64,000 bases of DNA. Source: Varibaculum prostatecancerukia. GTDB lineage: Bacteria; Actinomycetota; Actinomycetes; Actinomycetales; Actinomycetaceae. Positions 697 to 30,506 of this stretch are shown one piece after another. Location of the stretch: contig NZ_OW968402.1 of the NCBI RefSeq assembly GCF_943169825.2, positions 496,001 to 560,000 of the forward strand, in the 5' to 3' direction. Numbering within the stretch: position 1 is the first letter of the stretch; each line of letters opens with the position of its first letter. Both the position numbers and the translations under genes were made by a program. The notes under the pieces were generated by a model. It saw only the letters and a list, made by a program, of their open reading frames with translations. It ran no database searches and had not been told where the DNA came from.

Positions 697-1440
697 CTAA
701 AGGCTGATGGTGAACTTGTAGCGAGAGGCGCGGTAAATATGATCCCCGATTTCAATAGGCGCTCCTGATTGATTGTAGGAAATACGGCGCAAAGTCAAAA
801 TAGCTGCTCCTCGCGGTTCTTTCAGGGTTTCCGCTTCTTCGGTGCGGGCCTTGCGCGCGCAAATAGTTTGTTGGGCGCTGAAAACTTCGTGTCCGTGGCG
901 CCGCATCGCATTATAAAGCCCCCCAGAGCGCAGTTCCTTTTCGCTGGGTGCTACTTCCAACGGTAGATAGTTAGTCATAAGCGCCAAGGGCTCGCCATTG
1001 GCCAGGCGCAGGCGAACAACTTTAATTACACTCGCATCTGTATCAAGGTGTAAATCTTCTGCGACGTCCTCATCAGGAGAAACTTCCTCATAAGAAATTA
1101 CCTCAGTAGTGGGCTTTTGCCCGGTTTGTTTGAGGTCGTCATAAAGGGAAGACAGTTTGACTTGACGATGAATTTCTTTGGGGGCGACAATGGTGCCAAC
1201 TGCGCGTTTGCGCACTACTAAACGTAGTTCAACCAGGGACTGGAGGGCGCGCCGGGCAGTAGGGCGCGATACCCCAAGGCGGGAAGCCATGGACAGTTCG
1301 TCCTCAAGCTTTGCGCCCGCCGGAATGGTGCCGTCCAAAATGAGCTCTTTTATGGGTTCGGAAATCTGGTGATACAGGGGAATTGGGGAGTCGTGGTCCA
1401 ACTCTATATCTGCGACATAGGTTTTGGGGGTTGCCATCAT
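697..1440 (-). CDS. GntR-family (HutC/UTRA) transcriptional regulator
   Basis: About 247 residues from the ATG pair at 1440/1437. The N-terminal winged helix-turn-helix (about residues 15-80, IPLYHQISEPIKELI then LGVSRPTARRALQSL) is typical of GntR proteins. The rest fits a UTRA ligand-binding domain, including a late GAPIEIGDHIYRASRYKF segment. An open frame runs upstream to 1539, but GAAGGAGCTA stands directly before the ATG pair, so I start there; the second ATG (1437) has slightly better spacing. The gene lies between the divergent transaldolase-like and iolC genes and is probably the local inositol or inositol-phosphate responsive repressor, as IolR is in Corynebacterium. That role is inferred from position. 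An inverted repeat in its own promoter (1485-1502) suggests autoregulation. Confidence 0.85.
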   Translation of the reverse strand: MMATPKTYVADIELDHDSPIPLYHQISEPIKELILDGTIPAGAKLEDELSMASRLGVSRPTARRALQSLVELRLVVRKRAVGTIVAPKEIHRQVKLSSLYDDLKQTGQKPTTEVISYEEVSPDEDVAEDLHLDTDASVIKVVRLRLANGEPLALMTNYLPLEVAPSEKELRSGGLYNAMRRHGHEVFSAQQTICARKARTEEAETLKEPRGAAILTLRRISYNQSGAPIEIGDHIYRASRYKFTISL

Positions 1441-1470
1441 TAGCTCCTTCTGAACGAGGGTGTTTGAGCC

Positions 1471-1502
1471 ATTATAGCGCACAATGTCATATAAACATGA
1501 CA
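1471..1502 (-). promoter_or_regulatory. gntR promoter with inverted-repeat operator
   Basis: A perfect -10 TATAAT on the minus strand (1476-1471) lies about 30 nt upstream of the regulator start. Just upstream is the perfect inverted repeat TGTCATataaacATGACA (1485-1502), which would overlap the -35 region. This layout suits repression by the regulator itself. Confidence 0.5.
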
Positions 1503-1691
1503 ATATGCAGAATGCTGCTAAATTTTCCACATCTGGCACTATGGGGGATCTCCGTATCTCTACGAATAATCCGCTAATTTTGTTGACTATAGATAGGGTT
1601 TTTATTTTTAGGAGCTTCCCCTCTTCTTAAATCTTTGCTAGAATGTAAGTACAAAGCACCAAAGGTGGGCGGTGGTGCCTACGGCTGGTGC

Positions 1692-1705
1692 TGACAGTGT
1701 AGTCA
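1692..1705. promoter_or_regulatory. candidate operator in the iolC leader
   Basis: TGAC-AGTGTA-GTCA inverted repeat 30 nt before the iolC start. It shares TGAC/GTCA half-sites, in reversed order, with the repeats at 648-662 and 1485-1502. No convincing -35/-10 pair was found for iolC, although TAGAAT at 1639-1644 could be a -10. Confidence 0.3.
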
Positions 1706-1734
1706 ACAACGAATAAAAAGAGGGGAACGCTGCT

Positions 1735-2730
1735 GTGAATAGTTTCAAAATGCCCGCCGTGGATGTACTCACCATCGGGCGCTCGGGAGTGGATATCTAT
1801 CCGCTGCAAACCGGAGTAGGGCTAGAAAAGGTAGAACAGTTTGGAAAATTCCTAGGGGGAAGCCCGATGAACGTGGCGGTAGCGGCGGCGAAGCTGCGCC
1901 ACTCATCCGCGATTATCACCGGGGTAGGTAAAGATCCTTTCGGCAGATTTGTGCGTTCGGAGATGCGTTCCTTAGGTGTGTATGACACCTATGTAGTCGA
2001 TAATCCGAGCTTTGCTACCCCGGTAACTTTCTGCGAAATTTTCCCGCCGGATGATTTCCCGCTCTACTTCTATCGGGAGCCATCTGCACCGGACCTGCAA
2101 CTACGTGAAGAAGATATTCCTGTCGAGGCGGTAAGAGACGCCAAGATCTTTTGGATTTCCGTGACCGGTCTGTCCGAAGAACCCTCGCGCGGCGCTCACC
2201 ACTACGCTCTAGACCAGCGGAACCTGGGAGACGAAGGCAAGTGGACGATCGCGGACTTGGACTACCGCTCGACTTTCTGGAGCGATGAGGAAACCGCTCA
2301 CCGGGAAGTTGAACGAATGCTAGAAAAAGTCTCGGTCGCAGTCGGCAATAAAGAAGAATGCCGCATAGCCGTAGGGGAAACCGAGCCGGATCGCGCGGCC
2401 GATGCCTTGCTGGAGCGGGGAGTAGAAATCGCGGTAGTAAAACAAGGGCCGTTGGGCACTCTATGCAAAACCAAAGAGGAGCGGATTGAAGTTCCAGTGA
2501 CCCCGGTAAAGGTAACTAACGGCCTGGGTGCAGGAGATTCTTTCGGAGGATCGCTTTGTCACGGATTGCTTTCCGGATGGGATTTGCCGCAGGTTATTTC
2601 TGCGGCCTCCACTGCCGGAGCTATCGTGAGTTCTCGTCTGGAATGTTCCACGGCGATGCCCTCTGAACCGGAAATTTTGGATATGATTTCCAAGAACCCT
2701 CAGTCCGCTCCGATTGTTACTAAGAGGTAG
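1735..2730 (+). CDS. iolC: 5-dehydro-2-deoxygluconokinase
   Basis: This 331-residue PfkB/ribokinase-fold enzyme phosphorylates 5-dehydro-2-deoxygluconate in inositol breakdown. Family features visible are the N-terminal LTIGRSGVDIYPLQTG segment, the GGSPMNVAVAAAKL substrate-site motif (about residues 41-54), and the C-terminal GLGAGDSFGGSLCHG ATP/catalytic-base motif (about residues 265-279). The start is GTG at 1735 with a GGGGAA purine stretch upstream; no in-frame ATG is better placed. It begins a plus-strand operon with the aldolase, iolB and iolD genes, and the next gene starts 4 nt after its stop. Full length for the family. Confidence 0.93.
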   Translation: MNSFKMPAVDVLTIGRSGVDIYPLQTGVGLEKVEQFGKFLGGSPMNVAVAAAKLRHSSAIITGVGKDPFGRFVRSEMRSLGVYDTYVVDNPSFATPVTFCEIFPPDDFPLYFYREPSAPDLQLREEDIPVEAVRDAKIFWISVTGLSEEPSRGAHHYALDQRNLGDEGKWTIADLDYRSTFWSDEETAHREVERMLEKVSVAVGNKEECRIAVGETEPDRAADALLERGVEIAVVKQGPLGTLCKTKEERIEVPVTPVKVTNGLGAGDSFGGSLCHGLLSGWDLPQVISAASTAGAIVSSRLECSTAMPSEPEILDMISKNPQSAPIVTKR

Positions 2731-2734
2731 CGTC

Positions 2735-3625
2735 ATGGGAAAACTGATTGCAAAGCTAGCGGAAATTCGCGCCTTTGAGCCCGAACGTATAACTGAAACC
2801 CTAAAGCAGCGTCCTCGACCCAGCCTTAGGGAAGCATTAAAGGATGAAGCAGGTAAGCCTCGCAAATTGATGGTGATTGCCTGTGACCACCCCGCGCGCG
2901 GTGCGCTGGCTGCGGGTGATGATCCCAGCGCGATGGCCGATCGGGAAGAGCTGCTGGCGCGCTGCGCCGAGGCCCTTTCGCGGCCCGGGGTAAACGGTTT
3001 CTTGGGAACCGCCGATATGATCGAGGATTTGGCTCTGTTGGGCGCCCTCGATAATAAAGTGGTTTTCGGGTCGATGAACCGCGCCGGACTAGCGGGGGCT
3101 ACTTTTGGAATGGATGACCGTTTCAACTGCTACGATGCCCAAGGCGTGGAAGATGCGGGCCTGGCCGGGGGTAAGATGCTGACCCGGATCAACTATGAGG
3201 ACGCCGGCACGGTAGCAACTTTGCAGGCAACTGCGCAGGCTATTGATGAACTGGCAGATCGGAAACTGATGGCAATGGTAGAGCCGTTCATTTCGGAAGG
3301 GCCTGCCGAGAAGGTCAGTAATGTTCTCACTCCGGAAGCGGTCATAAAGTCGATGGCGATTGCAGCTGGACTGGGTCGTACCAGTGCTTATACCTGGCTG
3401 AAACTTCCGTGCGTATCCGAGATGGAACGCGTTATGGAAGCCACCACCCTTCCCTCTTTGATCCTAGGGGGAGAAGTATCTAAGGATCCCGATGCCGCCA
3501 TGGAGTCGTGGGGTAAGGCTTTGCGTCTTCCCAATGTCTTGGGGTTAGTCATCGGTCGTTCACTATTATTCCCGGCCGGTGGCGATGTGTCGCAGGCCGT
3601 AGACGAGACAGTAGGTTTGCTATGA
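2735..3625 (+). CDS. Cgl0159-like (beta/alpha)8-barrel aldolase-type protein
   Basis: About 296 residues starting at ATG 2735 behind AAGAGG; an upstream in-frame ATG at 2714 lies inside iolC and is less likely. It resembles the barrel protein conserved beside iolC in corynebacterial inositol clusters (Cgl0159 family), with KLMVIACDHPARGAL near residue 46, FLGTADMIEDL, and late TWLKLPC and LILGGEVSKDP segments that suit a class I (Schiff-base) aldolase fold. No iolJ-type aldolase is seen in this window, so it is a good candidate for the step splitting 2-deoxy-5-keto-gluconate 6-phosphate into dihydroxyacetone phosphate and malonate semialdehyde. That reaction is inferred, not shown. Its stop overlaps the iolB start (ATGA), suggesting coupled translation. 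Confidence 0.8.
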   Translation: MGKLIAKLAEIRAFEPERITETLKQRPRPSLREALKDEAGKPRKLMVIACDHPARGALAAGDDPSAMADREELLARCAEALSRPGVNGFLGTADMIEDLALLGALDNKVVFGSMNRAGLAGATFGMDDRFNCYDAQGVEDAGLAGGKMLTRINYEDAGTVATLQATAQAIDELADRKLMAMVEPFISEGPAEKVSNVLTPEAVIKSMAIAAGLGRTSAYTWLKLPCVSEMERVMEATTLPSLILGGEVSKDPDAAMESWGKALRLPNVLGLVIGRSLLFPAGGDVSQAVDETVGLL

Positions 3626-7551: not shown

Positions 7552-7676
7552 TGATACTAGATGGCTCCGAGTTAGGGGCGGCCAAGTATGGGAGCCAACA
7601 AGAGCCTCTCGCAAGCCAGCTGTATAGCGGTACGTTACCGGAAGTATCTTCCAGAAAATCGGCGCAGCTATAACCC

Positions 7677-8723
7677 CTAGAAGGTGGCGGTGTCGATTAC
7701 GTAGCGGTAGCGCACCTTAGCGGCTACCACGTTGTCCCAGGCTTCATTGATTTGCTCGCCGGAAATGATCTCTATCTGGGGCGCGATATTTTTCTCGGCG
7801 CAAAAGTCCAGTACTTCCTGGGTGAGGGCGATGCCGCCGATATTGGAGCCGGCCAGCATCTTTTGGCTACCCACCAGGTTGCCCATGGCAAAGGACTGGC
7901 GATTCTCGGGCAGTCCCACAATCCCTACGATCCCTTCGGGTTTTACACAATCTAGCAACTGATCGATTTCCATTCCGTCAGACAGGGTGGATACCACCAG
8001 GTCGAACTGGGAGTGCAGGCTTTCCCAAGTCCCGTCCTCGGAAGTGGGGTGCAGCGCAACTGCCCCAAATCGTTTCGCGTCCTCTTCTTTCGCGCGAGTG
8101 CGGGAAATGACGTGGGTTTCGGCTCCCAGGGCGGCGGCGATCTGTACCCCCATATGACCGAGTCCTCCCATGCCCACGATGGCGACTTTCTTGCCCGGTC
8201 CTGCCCCTAGCCGTTTGAGTGGGGAATATAAGGTCACCCCGGCACACATAATCGGGGCGGCTTTTTCTAGAGGAATCGCGTCCGGTATCCGGCACACGTA
8301 GTCTTGTTCCACGGTGATCCCGGTGGAATAACCGCCGGCTGTGGGGACGCCGTCGCGCCCGATGCAGTTATAAGTCCAGATAGTCCCGCCCTCGCCATTA
8401 CAGAATTGTTCGGTTCCTGCCTGGCACGCCTCGCATTTTCCGCAGGAATCCACGAAACAGCCGACCCCTACCCGGTCACCAACCGCAAACTTGGTTACTT
8501 TCGAGCCGATTTTGGTGACGATTCCCGCGATTTCATGACCGGGGGTGAGGGGGTAGATTACCTCTCCCCACTCCGCGCGTCCGGTGTGAATATCAGAGTG
8601 GCAGACCCCGGCATATTTGATCTCGAAGTAGATTTCGGTGGGCCCCGGTTCGCGCCGCTCTAAGGTTACGGGGTGGAAGGGCGAGGTGGCCGAATCCATC
8701 GCATAGGCTTTTACCTGGGTCAT
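7677..8723 (-). CDS. zinc-dependent NAD(P) alcohol dehydrogenase (MDR family, YahK/CAD-like)
   Basis: A 348-residue medium-chain dehydrogenase. The catalytic zinc site is visible in YAGVCHSDIHTGRAEWG and GHEIAG, the structural zinc cysteines in CGKCEACQAGTEQFC, and the Rossmann motif in GMGGLGHMGVQIAAALG. Spacing and motifs match the cinnamyl-alcohol-dehydrogenase/YahK subgroup, which reduces a range of aldehydes with NADPH. The ATG at 8723 is preceded by CAAGGAGCAGCA. It lies just upstream of the aldo/keto reductase on the same strand, with a 160-nt gap, and may share a detoxification role; this is inference. Confidence 0.92.
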   Translation of the reverse strand: MTQVKAYAMDSATSPFHPVTLERREPGPTEIYFEIKYAGVCHSDIHTGRAEWGEVIYPLTPGHEIAGIVTKIGSKVTKFAVGDRVGVGCFVDSCGKCEACQAGTEQFCNGEGGTIWTYNCIGRDGVPTAGGYSTGITVEQDYVCRIPDAIPLEKAAPIMCAGVTLYSPLKRLGAGPGKKVAIVGMGGLGHMGVQIAAALGAETHVISRTRAKEEDAKRFGAVALHPTSEDGTWESLHSQFDLVVSTLSDGMEIDQLLDCVKPEGIVGIVGLPENRQSFAMGNLVGSQKMLAGSNIGGIALTQEVLDFCAEKNIAPQIEIISGEQINEAWDNVVAAKVRYRYVIDTATF

Positions 8724-25238: not shown

Positions 25239-25372
25239 AAGACCATTCTTTCATTTAGTGACACTTTTAGTCTAATCGTCTTGAAAAATGGGGTGGTGAG
25301 GGTGGTAACGAGGGGGATTTTAAAGATGTTAACGGATTGGGAATGCTGGTAATTTTAATCGGGGAGGTGCAC

Positions 25373-26614
25373 TTGACTAACTTACTGCTGGCACTGATTT
25401 ATCTCGCGTTTATCAGCTTGGGGCTGCCTGACGCTCTGCTGGGTTCTGCCTGGCCAGCGATTTATCCAGATTTTGAAGTTACGGTTTCCTACGCCGGCAT
25501 TGTTTCAGTGATTATTTCTTTAGGAACCATCGTTTCCTCCCTACTATCAGATCGTTTGATATCCCGACTGGGAACCGGAAAAATTACGGTCATCTCAGTG
25601 GCGCTGACTGCGGCAGCTATCCTCGGTTTCGGGTTGGCACCCAATTTTTGGGTGCTGTGTATCTGGGCTATTCCTTACGGACTGGGAGCAGGCAGTATAG
25701 ATGTGGCGCTAAATAATTATGTGGCGCTACATTTCAAGAGTAGTCATATGAACTGGCTGCATTGCTCGTGGGGAATTGGAGCCACTATCGGTCCTTACAT
25801 TATGGGAGCGGCACTTTCTGGAGGTAGTGGCTGGCGAGGGGGCTACTGGTATGCAGCCTGCATACAGCTGGCCATAACCGCGATTTTGTTCCTAAGTTTG
25901 CCCCTGTGGAAACGCCGAGAGCAAGCCGATTCTGCCGCTGCCCGAAGCAGCAAAACGGATCCGGGTGCAGAAAACAATGCGCCCACAACTGTCGAGGAAG
26001 TGCTGGAACCGACAGTGCAGCCCACGCAGTCTGGGTATCTGAAACTTTCCGAAGTGGTACAGATTTGGGGAGTGAAAGCCATGATGGTCTGTTTCTTCTG
26101 TTATTCCGCGGTAGAACACACCATCGGGCTGTGGGCGGCGACCTACTTGCGGTTGTTTAAAAATATGGATGCGGCTGCGGCCGCCGCCTTCGCTAGCATG
26201 GTGTTCTTGGGGATAACCCTCGGGCGTGCCGTCAGCGGTTTTTTGGCTATGCGTTACTCAGATCAACAGATGATCCGTTTCGGAATGATACTGACAGGTT
26301 TGGGGTTACTAATCCTGATTATCCCGGGTCCAGCCACATTGGCAGTGTGCGGAATTATGACTATCGGACTGGGGTGCTCTCCCATTTACCCGGCGATGAT
26401 CCATTCCACTCCGCAGATTTTTGGGAGGGAGCGCTCTCGGGCAATCACCGGGGTGCAAATGGCCTGTTTCTTTGTGGGAGTCCTGATAATGCCGCCGCTA
26501 TTCGGTATAGTGGCTGATCATTTGTCAGTGGGGTTGCTGCCAGTATATTTGAGTATCGCCCTGGGGTTAATGGCATTTATGCAGTACCGTCTGGGGCGAC
26601 TAGCCGATGTTTAA
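25373..26614 (+). CDS. MFS transporter (12 TM)
   Basis: About 413 residues from TTG 25373, which follows GGGGAGGTGCAC; an upstream ATG at 25337 lacks a site. The N-terminal half has a GLPDALLGSAWPAIYPDF opening and the SDRLISRLGTGK loop between helices 2 and 3. A polar loop of about 45 residues splits the two six-helix halves, and the second half has GITLGRAVSGFLAMRYSDQ. The GLPD/NWLH pattern suits the sugar or drug MFS groups that include FucP-like porters, but the substrate cannot be read. It is divergent from a TetR gene, which suggests induced export. Confidence 0.85.
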   Translation: MTNLLLALIYLAFISLGLPDALLGSAWPAIYPDFEVTVSYAGIVSVIISLGTIVSSLLSDRLISRLGTGKITVISVALTAAAILGFGLAPNFWVLCIWAIPYGLGAGSIDVALNNYVALHFKSSHMNWLHCSWGIGATIGPYIMGAALSGGSGWRGGYWYAACIQLAITAILFLSLPLWKRREQADSAAARSSKTDPGAENNAPTTVEEVLEPTVQPTQSGYLKLSEVVQIWGVKAMMVCFFCYSAVEHTIGLWAATYLRLFKNMDAAAAAAFASMVFLGITLGRAVSGFLAMRYSDQQMIRFGMILTGLGLLILIIPGPATLAVCGIMTIGLGCSPIYPAMIHSTPQIFGRERSRAITGVQMACFFVGVLIMPPLFGIVADHLSVGLLPVYLSIALGLMAFMQYRLGRLADV

Positions 26615-26821
26615 GCGGTTTTTCAAGCTATGTTTTGCTGCCGGATATCTAGCATCCTGTTTGCGCAAATATGCTTGGGGATTTAGGAACCAGAGAATCC
26701 GTGAATCGAGTCGAATTAGGGTTGTGGGTCAGGTAACATTTTTTATGTCTAAGTATTTGTTATCGCAATGACGCTGTTTATAGCAAAGAGAACCAAAACG
26801 CCTAATAGAAAAGAGTTGGCA

Positions 26822-29449
26822 ATGTCCCAAAAAAGCTCCCCTCCCGTCCTCAGTGAAGAATCTGAAGAAAAATCCGCGATAGATGTGCTGGTAGAGGAGG
26901 CGCTACAGGCGCTTAAGGATTTTAAGAAACTCGATCAGCAAACCGTAGATCTGATTGTGGAAACCGCAGCCCGAAAGGCGCGGGAAGCCCATGCGGTGCT
27001 GGCCGCCGAGGCGGTCGCGGAAACCAAGCGCGGAAACTTCGAAGACAAAACGGTAAAAAATATCTTTGCCTCCGAAGTTATCGCCGATGACTTGGAAGGA
27101 CAAAAAACCGTAGGAGTTATTTCCCGTGATGAGCTCTCGGGGATTGTGCAGGTAGCCGAACCCGTCGGGGTGGTGGCGGCGCTAACTCCAGTCACTAACC
27201 CCACCTCCACCACTATTTTTAAGGCTCTGATCTGCCTTAAAACCCGGAATCCGATTATTTTTGCTTTCCACCCTTACGCCCAAGATTGTTCGGCTCATGC
27301 CGCAAAAATTGTTTACGAGGCGGCGTTGGAAGCCGGGGCGCCTAAAGGCTGTGTACAGTGGATTTCCGCTCCCTCTATGCAAGCCACTGCTGACCTAATA
27401 AATCACCCCGGGGTGGCAGTTATTTTAGCGACCGGCGGTAATGCCATGGTTAAAAGCGCCTACTCATGTGGCAAACCTGCCTTGGGGGTGGGAGCTGGAA
27501 ACTGCCCCGCCTACATTCACGAGAGCGCGGTAGTGAAAAACGCGGTCAATGACATTACCATTTCCAAGTCTTTCGACAACGGGATGATCTGCGCATCCGA
27601 ACAGGCAGTGATTCTCGATGCCTCCATTGCTGACCAGGCGCTGGCAGAGTTCGAACATCTCGGGTGCCATCTGGCAAATGCAAAGGAAAAAGAGCAACTG
27701 GAAGACTTGCTATTCGGGGCGCGCGCCGGGAGTGAAGAATGTAAGACCGCCAAGTTGAATGCGGCGGTCGTGGGGCAGAGCGCAGCAAAAATAGCTGAAA
27801 TGGCTGGATTTAGCGTACCCGAGGATACCCAGGCAATCCTAGTGCAATGCACGGAAGTGAGTTATGCCGAACCCTTGACCAGGGAAAAACTCTCGCCAGT
27901 GTTAGCGGTGCTCCGGGCAGAAAACTCCGCCGAAGGCATCGAATTGTCTCGCCAAATGGTGGAACAAGACGGGCTGGGTCATAGCGCCGCCATTCACTGT
28001 CGGGATCGTGAAGTTATTGACAAGTTCGCCACCGAAGTTAATACCGTACGCATAATAGAAAATTCTCCCAGTTCATTCGGAGCTATCGGCGGACTTTATA
28101 ACGCGATGGTGCCCTCCTTGACCCTAGGTTGCGGCTCCTATGGACATAACTCAGTGTCGAACAATATCAGTGCGGTGAACTTGCTAAATATCAAACGGCT
28201 AGCCAGGAGGAACCCGGTAATGACGCCTTTCCAAATCCCCAATCAAATCTATCTTGGATCTGGCTATATCCGGCAGCTAGCCAACCTGGAGCTGGGAACG
28301 AAAATTACGGTGATTACCAACCAACGTGCCGCCAATAGCGGACAGTTGGATGTGGTGATGCAGCTGCTATATGCCCGCAGTGAAAAAATATCTGTGCAGG
28401 TTATCGAAGATGTAGAAGCTCATTTCACTACCGAGTATCTAAAGAAGAAGGTGCGGGAAGTTTCCGGTTACGGTCCGCAGACGATTTTAGCCGTGGGGGA
28501 GCGTGACGTCATTAATGTCGCTAAGTTCTTGCGGCTGTTGGTTGCTTGCCCCCAGCTGCCAATCAAAGAGGTCTGCGCCGGGCATATTGCGCTGCCTTCT
28601 CTCATTAATTCGCCGCAGCTGATCTGTGTGCCCACTATTACCGGAGGACGAGCTTCAGTAGCACCCTGGGCAGCGATCACCGATGTTAATACCGGCTTTG
28701 CTCGTCCGGTTAAATCCACCGCTTTTCTACCGCAAATCGTGGTTATGGATACCACTTTGGCGGTCTATTCCCGAAAAGATACCCTGCAGCGCGGTTTCCA
28801 AGCGATCGCCTATGGGATCGAGGGCTACACTTCTACGCAGGCCAGCGAATATACCAATTCTTTGGCGCTGCATGGTCTAGAAAATGTCTACAAGATCCTG
28901 CCCCAGGTAGTTAGCGCCTCGGAGAACAGTCAAGAATTCATTGATCTGCGAGAAAAGCTGATTGAAGGATCATTCTTGATTTCAACTGCCCAGGCGAATA
29001 CCACTATGGGGTTGGCAGATTCCATCACTAAGACTTTCGCGGCCGTCTTTGGAGGACGCGCTCAGGACTATTTCTCCTCGGTACTGCCCAATACGGTGCG
29101 TTTCTTAGGAGGGCATCCCCGAAAGTTTGTGGCTTCCCCTAACTACCTGCGATTCCAGGCTCCCCAGCAATTAGCTGAGATCTGCAGGCGGCTGGGGATT
29201 AGCGCCCAGGAAGATAACGCAGGAGAGGCTCTGGCGCAGGCTCTAGAAAGCTTAGTAGTCGATTTCGGAGTGCCGCTAAAGGTGCAAGACTTCCAGGTAT
29301 CGGAAGCCGATTTCTTGGAGCAGCTGCCGGAACTTGCCCAACGCACTTTCGATCGAGAGTCCTATACCGGTACTCCACGTAAAGCCACGATAGCGGAAGT
29401 AGAAAATATCCTTAGAGCCTGCTACTACGGACAAGAATTCGTTTCCTAG
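26822..29449 (+). CDS. adhE: AdhE homologue: intact acetaldehyde dehydrogenase half, degenerate iron-alcohol-dehydrogenase half
   Basis: About 875 residues from ATG 26822; the ATG at 26768 is also in frame and neither has a strong ribosome site. The N-terminal half (to about 440) has all expected CoA-acylating aldehyde dehydrogenase motifs, including the catalytic cysteine in FDNGMICASEQAV and LTLGCGSYGHNSVS. The C-terminal half aligns with the iron-dependent alcohol dehydrogenase of AdhE, but its motifs are changed. The NAD-binding GGGS is GERD (residues 559-562). Against the E. coli ligands Asp653, His657, His723 and His737, I read Gln660, Tyr664, Asp733 and Ala747. It probably makes acetyl-CoA from acetaldehyde or the reverse; ethanol formation by the second half is doubtful. 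Confidence 0.88.
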   Translation: MSQKSSPPVLSEESEEKSAIDVLVEEALQALKDFKKLDQQTVDLIVETAARKAREAHAVLAAEAVAETKRGNFEDKTVKNIFASEVIADDLEGQKTVGVISRDELSGIVQVAEPVGVVAALTPVTNPTSTTIFKALICLKTRNPIIFAFHPYAQDCSAHAAKIVYEAALEAGAPKGCVQWISAPSMQATADLINHPGVAVILATGGNAMVKSAYSCGKPALGVGAGNCPAYIHESAVVKNAVNDITISKSFDNGMICASEQAVILDASIADQALAEFEHLGCHLANAKEKEQLEDLLFGARAGSEECKTAKLNAAVVGQSAAKIAEMAGFSVPEDTQAILVQCTEVSYAEPLTREKLSPVLAVLRAENSAEGIELSRQMVEQDGLGHSAAIHCRDREVIDKFATEVNTVRIIENSPSSFGAIGGLYNAMVPSLTLGCGSYGHNSVSNNISAVNLLNIKRLARRNPVMTPFQIPNQIYLGSGYIRQLANLELGTKITVITNQRAANSGQLDVVMQLLYARSEKISVQVIEDVEAHFTTEYLKKKVREVSGYGPQTILAVGERDVINVAKFLRLLVACPQLPIKEVCAGHIALPSLINSPQLICVPTITGGRASVAPWAAITDVNTGFARPVKSTAFLPQIVVMDTTLAVYSRKDTLQRGFQAIAYGIEGYTSTQASEYTNSLALHGLENVYKILPQVVSASENSQEFIDLREKLIEGSFLISTAQANTTMGLADSITKTFAAVFGGRAQDYFSSVLPNTVRFLGGHPRKFVASPNYLRFQAPQQLAEICRRLGISAQEDNAGEALAQALESLVVDFGVPLKVQDFQVSEADFLEQLPELAQRTFDRESYTGTPRKATIAEVENILRACYYGQEFVS

Positions 29450-29540: not shown

Positions 29541-30506
29541 CTAGAGGGTAGGATCACTCTCGCGTACCTTAGCGACCTCCGCCTGAGTAGGAGCATAGGC
29601 GCCTACCTTGCTTACCGTAATCCCTGAGGTGATAGTTGCCCGGTGCAGGGCGCCTTCAACATCGCTGAGTTGGGCTTGCTGTAGTCGCTGTTTGGCTTCT
29701 GCCGAGCCCAATAGCCCCGCATCCAGTAGCCCCGAAATCAGTCCCGCCATAAAAGAATCTCCGGCACCCACCGTGTCTTTGACCTCGATATTTAGGGGAT
29801 CGACCGCCAACATATCCCGGTCATTGGCGCACACTGCATAGGTAGCCCACGGCCCGCGGGTAGCCACAATCAGACCCGGCCCCATAGCTTTCCATTTCCG
29901 CAACACTGCCTCTAAGGGAGTGTCTTCGCCATAGAGCCAAGCAATATCCTCGTCACTGGCTTTGACCACATCGGCTAGGCTGATCAGTTCTTCAATCCGC
30001 GGCCGTACCTCTTCGGGGGTACCCATCAAGGAGGGGCGCACATTCGGGTCGTAGCTGACGGTGCCTTGAGCCGCCATTGCCTTCACTGCCTCGGCCACTG
30101 CTGAGGCACCGGGTGCCAAGGTAGCGGCGAAACTACCGGTATGCAGGTGGCTAAGAGCAGAAACTTCGGGCAGGGACGGAACTTGCCACTCTAACTCGAA
30201 ATCGTAGGTTGCTTGCCCGTTATCGTCGATATGGGCGTTAGCTATCGGAGTTTTCTGAGCGTTAGCGCTGCCAGGGACAACTTTAACCCCGGCGGTGGCT
30301 AATTTTTCTTCCAGGCTCTTTCCACGCGCGTCCTCGCCCCACCAAGAAGCTAGGGAGGTGGGATGCCCCAAACTGGCTACTCCACAGGCAACGTTAAAGA
30401 CGCTGCCTCCTACTTTTTCTTCAATGTTTCCTGCACGTTCAATAACGTCGATCAGGGCTTCGCCCAGGCAAAGTACAGGATGATCGGTTGATTTCATTTC
30501 TGTCAT
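29541..30506 (-). CDS. PfkB-family carbohydrate kinase (fructokinase-like)
   Basis: 321 residues. The PfkB signatures are present: GGSVFNVACGVASLG near the N-terminus and DTVGAGDSFMAGLISGLLDAG with the catalytic Asp in the C-terminal third. The LCLGEALIDVIE opening and SYDPNVRPSLMG segment are closest to fructokinases. It lies 5 nt downstream of a sugar porter gene on the same strand with a GGAG site, so the pair probably imports and phosphorylates one sugar, perhaps fructose. The sugar identity is inference. Confidence 0.88.
   Translation of the reverse strand: MTEMKSTDHPVLCLGEALIDVIERAGNIEEKVGGSVFNVACGVASLGHPTSLASWWGEDARGKSLEEKLATAGVKVVPGSANAQKTPIANAHIDDNGQATYDFELEWQVPSLPEVSALSHLHTGSFAATLAPGASAVAEAVKAMAAQGTVSYDPNVRPSLMGTPEEVRPRIEELISLADVVKASDEDIAWLYGEDTPLEAVLRKWKAMGPGLIVATRGPWATYAVCANDRDMLAVDPLNIEVKDTVGAGDSFMAGLISGLLDAGLLGSAEAKQRLQQAQLSDVEGALHRATITSGITVSKVGAYAPTQAEVAKVRESDPTL

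Follow-up and report, generated by a model that had tools for sequence, protein, structure and literature searches.

The closest described relatives of the protein considered here are the bifunctional AdhE enzymes (PRK13805/NF010378), in which an aldehyde dehydrogenase (ALDH) half and an iron-dependent alcohol dehydrogenase (ADH) half are joined by a linker. In work on AdhE assembly, F670 fits a pocket formed by F462, I460 and I712, and mutation of F670 breaks the spirosome (PMC6778083). When the spirosome of E. coli is disrupted, the ALDH reaction suffers in the forward direction (PMC6778083; PMC7080775), and this is the reaction mainly affected in assembly mutants (PMC6778083). In the E. coli enzyme, loop 2 contributes to closing off the cavity between the two active sites (PMC7080775), and the loops at the ALDH–ADH interface are described as specific to AdhE in PMC12454647. 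Loss of ADH function is documented in PMC11269746, where 70 of 85 partial adhE genes of Lactobacillaceae are ALDH-only; the catalytic ALDH half is kept in these genes and the ADH domain is deleted. The same source cites a Polytomella AdhE, which is eukaryotic and full-length and whose ADH domain shows very little activity. Two further systems were compared. BdhE, according to PMC12454647, is an independent ALDH–ADH fusion that shares the enzymatic activities of AdhE, and it has an ADH domain that adopts the same fold (9ldl, Z 43.6). ErcA (NF041833) is classified by NCBIfam as an ADH-like regulatory protein.

The window, by which we mean the whole 64,000-nucleotide stretch analysed (G+C 52.6%), contains an open frame at 26822–29449 on the forward strand that encodes an AdhE-lineage protein of 875 amino acids with an active-looking ALDH half and a pseudo-ADH half. 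An in-frame ATG at 26768 is an alternative start that would give a product of 893 amino acids, but comparison of four species of the genus showed insertions and deletions in the region 5' of 26822. The Pfam domains Aldedh, Fe-ADH and ADH_Fe_C were all detected. The top NCBIfam model was bifunctional AdhE, with a score of 895.1 bits that does not reach the curated cut-off of 951; TIGR02518, consulted for a monofunctional acetylating acetaldehyde dehydrogenase, gave 438 bits (cut-off 620). The protein shares with bifunctional AdhE the two-half architecture, the linker, loop 3 and the ALDH catalytic residues, but differs from it in having no iron ligands, a broken NAD motif, a short loop 2 and a score below the cut-off. 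It also differs from the Lactobacillaceae genes as they appear in PMC11269746, since its ADH half is full-length and under selection. BdhE matched the window protein with an E value of only 1.8e-14. The ErcA model covers the ADH-like part only and matched the ADH half weakly, at 86.6 bits, far under its cut-off of 550.

To compare catalytic residues we used the numbering of E. coli K-12 AdhE (NC_000913.3) and an alignment with 102 other intact AdhEs. In the ALDH half (about residues 1–447; 26822–28162, forward strand) both catalytic residues are retained, C246 as C257 and H367 as H387. The state of the pseudo-ADH half (residues 465–875; 28214–29446, forward strand) is different. The iron ligands D653 and H657 are replaced by Q660 and Y664 (28799–28813, forward strand), H723 and H737 by D733 and A747, and the fifth conserved ADH residue, H727, by K737 (these three within 29018–29062, forward strand). 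The NAD motif GGGSPMD reads GERDVIN at residues 559–565 (28496–28516, forward strand), G544–S547 corresponding to G559-E560-R561-D562 and D550 to N565. The preliminary description had named the retained ALDH cysteine, the GERD sequence at 559–562 and all five replacements, and the alignment bore out every residue number, as well as its view that the second half is no ordinary iron- and NAD-dependent alcohol dehydrogenase. We considered whether the ligands had been shifted but were still present. From residue 465 onwards the window protein has four histidines in total (534, 588, 684 and 765), the closest to ligand positions being H765, 18 residues from 747, and H684, 20 residues from 664. With none near the ligand positions, the three histidine ligands are absent rather than displaced, and this alternative was rejected. 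The D-H-H-H-H set of five residues was present in 120/120 other AdhEs read, which comprised 23 from the same family, 17 loci from the order and phylum, 79 loci of named species and E. coli. From these residues, the ADH half of the window protein is almost certainly inactive as an iron-dependent alcohol dehydrogenase, and its ALDH half is very probably active.

The same losses were found in relatives. A search of 213 genomes of the family at a threshold of E <= 1e-100 gave an AdhE match in 35, and in nine of these, which represent five genera, the protein is full-length and shows the losses, so that a sequencing or assembly artefact is unlikely. Four carriers belong to the genus of the window (G000, the genome of the window, with G086, G103 and G044; 84–100% identity) and five to other genera (G150, G023, G160, G034 and G005; 50–56% identity). 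Two further genomes of the same genus, G011 and G068, had no AdhE at this threshold, and the form is patchily distributed: it occurs in four of the six genomes of this genus and here and there in four other genera. The draft genome G034 has two gene copies with identical scores, at C27:62788–65337 and C51:24354–26903, which may reflect either a duplication or redundancy of the assembly. Canonical-scoring AdhEs occurred in 24 genomes of the family, and D-H-H-H-H was intact in 23/23 of those read (G078 was left out). In two genomes, G189 and G193, the ALDH half stands alone, with its cysteine and histidine retained and a frame that stops just past the linker. Outside the family, no match above 815 bits was obtained in 396 genomes from the order or in 396 from the phylum, compared with at least 875 bits for the nine carriers, and the 17 loci read from these searches were all canonical. 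The five ADH residues are lost throughout the nine carriers with one exception, a histidine at 723 in G034 (locus L090), and the former ligand positions differ among them: Q or E at 653; Y, C or Q at 657; D, G, E, H or N at 723; A, N or R at 737. The motif GGGSxxD has G545, G546 and D550 replaced and G544 retained in 9/9.

The structure of the ADH half was also predicted. AlphaFold2 returned a model with pLDDT 89.4 and pTM 0.89; its input alignment combined the ADH half with 59 canonical AdhE rows and favoured the canonical fold, so the model shows compatibility of sequence and fold and nothing beyond. The solved structures closest to this predicted model (VIA) were ADH domains of AdhE, with 3zdr at Z 51.7 and an rmsd of 1.8 A over 394 residues. 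In phmmer the ADH half matched AdhE 7dag with an E value of 1.7e-42, against 2.2e-13 for the best other iron-dependent ADH, and since the ADH domains of AdhE match best by a wide margin, a swap of the half for another Fe-ADH family is unsupported. The predicted fold and the presence of new polar invariant residues would suit an ADH half that retains dehydrogenase or other catalysis by a different chemistry, with another metal or none, or another cofactor. We regard this as very improbable, because the variation at the former ligand positions leaves no common new ligand set in their place, and G545, G546 and D550 of the NAD motif are replaced in every carrier. With its fold kept by prediction, its catalytic residues lost and its sequence under purifying selection, the ADH half is best described as a pseudoenzyme.

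The contacts that hold AdhE assemblies together are preserved in part. The end of the ALDH half and the linker occupy residues 448–464 (28163–28213, forward strand; E. coli about 432–448), the equivalents of N440, K442 and R447 are invariant in 9/9 carriers, and the segments that form the ALDH dimer are for the most part preserved. Since these elements persist, the domain-swapped dimer is expected to persist as well. The first ADH strand is altered in all nine, the canonical W453 being replaced by proline and E463 by glycine. Position 670 is tyrosine or phenylalanine in eight of the nine (Y677 in the window protein) and leucine in one, and position 460 is isoleucine or valine, but the equivalents of F462 and I712 are replaced in 9/9; position 712 is methionine in 101/103 canonical rows. 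Because two of the three residues of the F670 pocket are changed, a classical spirosome in the carriers appears doubtful. The earlier suggestion of a structural second half thus stands as plausible, given the predicted fold and the invariant linker residues. The more specific idea that this half holds the spirosome form fared less well, since the aromatic residue at 670 is set against the replaced F462 and I712 and the short loop 2.

Loop 2 (residues 576–597; 28547–28612, forward strand; E. coli 561–589) is 22 residues long in 9/9 carriers and 29 (n = 116) or 33 (n = 4) in the 120 canonical AdhEs, a deletion of seven residues being common to all nine. All nine also have the substitutions D550N, W556R, T601G and Y620R, and 21 ADH-half residues are private invariants, found in 9/9 carriers and in at most 5% of the 103 canonical AdhEs. 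Maximum-likelihood trees were built with 34 of the 103 canonical rows. In the ALDH-half tree, which is independent of the changed ADH columns, a branch supported at 100/99 sets the nine carriers and the two ALDH-only proteins apart from the other rows. The ADH-half tree, for which the program gave a long-branch warning, separates the nine with support 100/100. The common loop deletion, the private and common residues and the tree branch together suggest that the inactivated form most likely arose once. The best ALDH tree nests the pair from G189 and G193 with G005. A tree in which the nine form a separate clade was not rejected (AU p 0.102), so that deletion of the ADH half in the G189/G193 lineage after inactivation is likely, short of demonstrated. 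No convincing remnant of an ADH half was found by tblastn in 9 kb beside the two ALDH-only genes (best E 0.019).

The two halves differ strongly in constraint. We defined a conserved position as one that is the same in at least 95% of the 103 canonical AdhEs, which gave 133 positions in the ALDH half and 119 in the ADH half. Of the 133 ALDH positions, 119 are kept by every carrier and no position is missing from all of them; of the 119 ADH positions, every carrier keeps 25, and 51 are lost throughout the nine. The window protein alone keeps 130/133 and 43/119, respectively. Losses were more frequent at active-site positions of the ADH half than at its remaining conserved positions (13/19 versus 36/97; one-sided Fisher p 0.012, with 120 canonical rows, 116 conserved positions and 49 lost), a p value that is descriptive only since the active-site set was chosen after seeing the alignment. 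Across the five genera the divergence of the ADH half is 1.71 times that of the ALDH half, compared with ratios of 0.86–1.20 in 200 canonical quintets. The number of invariant ADH columns is 78 across the five genera and 73 across all nine carriers, against 155–208 in 200 canonical quintets with similar divergence of the ALDH half. Within the genus, omega of the ADH half was 0.07–0.11 by NG86 (six pairs) and 0.09–0.17 by YN00, and that of the ALDH half 0.03–0.07 and 0.05–0.10. In comparisons made by NG86 only, with some dS >1, ADH omega exceeded ALDH omega in 7/7 pairs of the carrier group and was below it in 16/19 canonical pairs.

The excess divergence and omega are what would be expected of an ADH half decaying toward deletion, with the two ALDH-only proteins as the end point, and loss by domain through ALDH-only genes is known in Lactobacillaceae (PMC11269746). 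Such decay is nevertheless quite unlikely here. The ADH half is under purifying selection: omega is far below 1, the frames are open in 9/9, and both the loop length and the 73 invariant columns have been maintained across five genera. The ALDH-only proteins, moreover, may be a sister lineage, given the AU result for the nine-only clade. The ADH half is relaxed relative to its former state but remains strongly selected, and the frame of the window gene is open over its full length, in agreement with the preliminary description, which had seen no simple decay by frameshift.

An MFS transporter gene directly upstream of the locus (25337–26614, forward strand) and a downstream gene for a PfkB-family sugar kinase (29541–30506, reverse strand) adjoin the AdhE gene in 4/4 same-genus carriers. 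In G103 and G044 (L119 and L120) the block of MFS, pseudo-AdhE and PfkB genes lies beside genes for Efe-like iron uptake and for metal ABC transporters (named by eye), a different setting which indicates a rearrangement of the block or of what surrounds it. In G023, G160, G034 and G005, each compared with the window only (G150 was not included), no gene flanking adhE matched the window flanks. In G023 (L121, 6276–13832) the pseudo-AdhE gene is a few kb from matches to genes at window positions 697–3625 that look iol-like (inositol breakdown) by eye. A Rex-type operator motif gave 18 matches in the window with up to 2 mismatches against 23 expected, with none between 25337 and 26822, and was rejected as a signal; in 5/8 relatives a 410-base stretch spanning the start contained a match with 2 mismatches, whose position varied, a count not set against chance.

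A zinc-dependent alcohol dehydrogenase or aldehyde reductase gene at 7677–8723 on the reverse strand is a candidate partner. Its product resembles the NADPH aldehyde reductase Ahr with 268 bits, well below the cut-off of 470, and a second Zn-ADH is encoded elsewhere in the genome. The proposal that ethanol would need the 7677–8723 enzyme is thus not established. The genome also has a PFL-like gene, and with the two Zn-ADHs a two-enzyme route to ethanol would be possible. PFL-like genes were present in 195/213 genomes, including 8/9 carriers (not G044), and are therefore uninformative as a correlate. The deoC gene was found in 12/13 genomes searched and not in that of the window, which makes deoxyribose breakdown by DeoC unlikely as a source of acetaldehyde there. 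At window positions 7578–7678 an aldo-keto reductase gene and the Zn-ADH gene are about 100 bases apart; the corresponding distance in G086 is about 7.1 kb, a stretch that holds a regulator, deoC, an MFS transporter, an epimerase-like gene and a sugar kinase (all but deoC identified by eye). No other Fe-ADH was found in G000, where a shikimate kinase/3-dehydroquinate synthase is the sole further PF00465 match; further PF00465 matches in the eight remaining carriers scored 24–43 bits, and the one inspected (G150) looked dehydroquinate-synthase-like by eye.

The explanation we favour, and consider probable, is that the protein is a monofunctional acetaldehyde-CoA dehydrogenase of AdhE descent whose pseudoenzyme ADH half has been retained for assembly. 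From the known chemistry of the family and the residues retained, the ALDH half would interconvert acetyl-CoA and NADH with acetaldehyde, CoA and NAD, and there would be no second reaction on the same chain. The fold would be retained because the ALDH half works within the AdhE domain-swapped dimer, which would require an ADH body that is folded and attached to the linker. Acetaldehyde would be released rather than channelled to a neighbouring iron site, and its reduction (or its supply) would fall to separate enzymes, for instance the Zn-ADHs; a shorter loop 2 suits a channel that is no longer required. The impairment of the forward ALDH reaction by spirosome disruption in E. coli gives a reason for keeping a folded but dead ADH body. 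Counter-evidence comes from G189 and G193, in which an ALDH half with cysteine and histidine stands alone and the ADH half is thus dispensable, and from the F462, I712, W453 and E463 positions, whose alteration in all nine argues against an unchanged spirosome contact.

The private invariants bear on a further reading, which takes up the earlier suggestion of a different ligand. Here the old ADH cleft would have been refitted to bind, say, a nucleotide or an anionic metabolite, and would regulate the ALDH half allosterically. The 21 residues include N565, R571, G609, R628, R657, S847 and G850, several are at or next to the old NAD motif, the helix of the iron ligands and C841, and the ADH half is under strong selection. 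Those near the old NAD and ligand positions presumably line the former cleft, and their placement hints at a new site over a plain scaffold. Common descent alone would fix some of these columns, and only 78 ADH columns are invariant across the five genera where canonical quintets have at least 155. We consider the refitted cleft possible though rather unlikely; the fuller scenario, in which activity was lost once, the channel loop was shed and the cleft was then refitted for a new, perhaps anionic, effector controlling the ALDH half, is unlikely. Assembly or stability, and not a new ligand, is probably the main reason why the ADH half has been kept.

Loss of ADH by domain is known, and we found no report in the open-licence literature of a bacterial AdhE with a retained, selected but dead ADH half. 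The counterpart of the Lactobacillaceae ALDH-only genes in the family of the window is the pair from G189 and G193. One bacterial family thus offers a natural separation-of-function series, in which AdhE is intact, has an ADH half that is dead yet selected, or consists of the ALDH half only. This series makes it testable whether the ADH body and the filament serve the ALDH reaction structurally, apart from the channelling of acetaldehyde to the iron site. It also calls for caution with annotation, as genomes annotated with a bifunctional AdhE may not form ethanol in that way.
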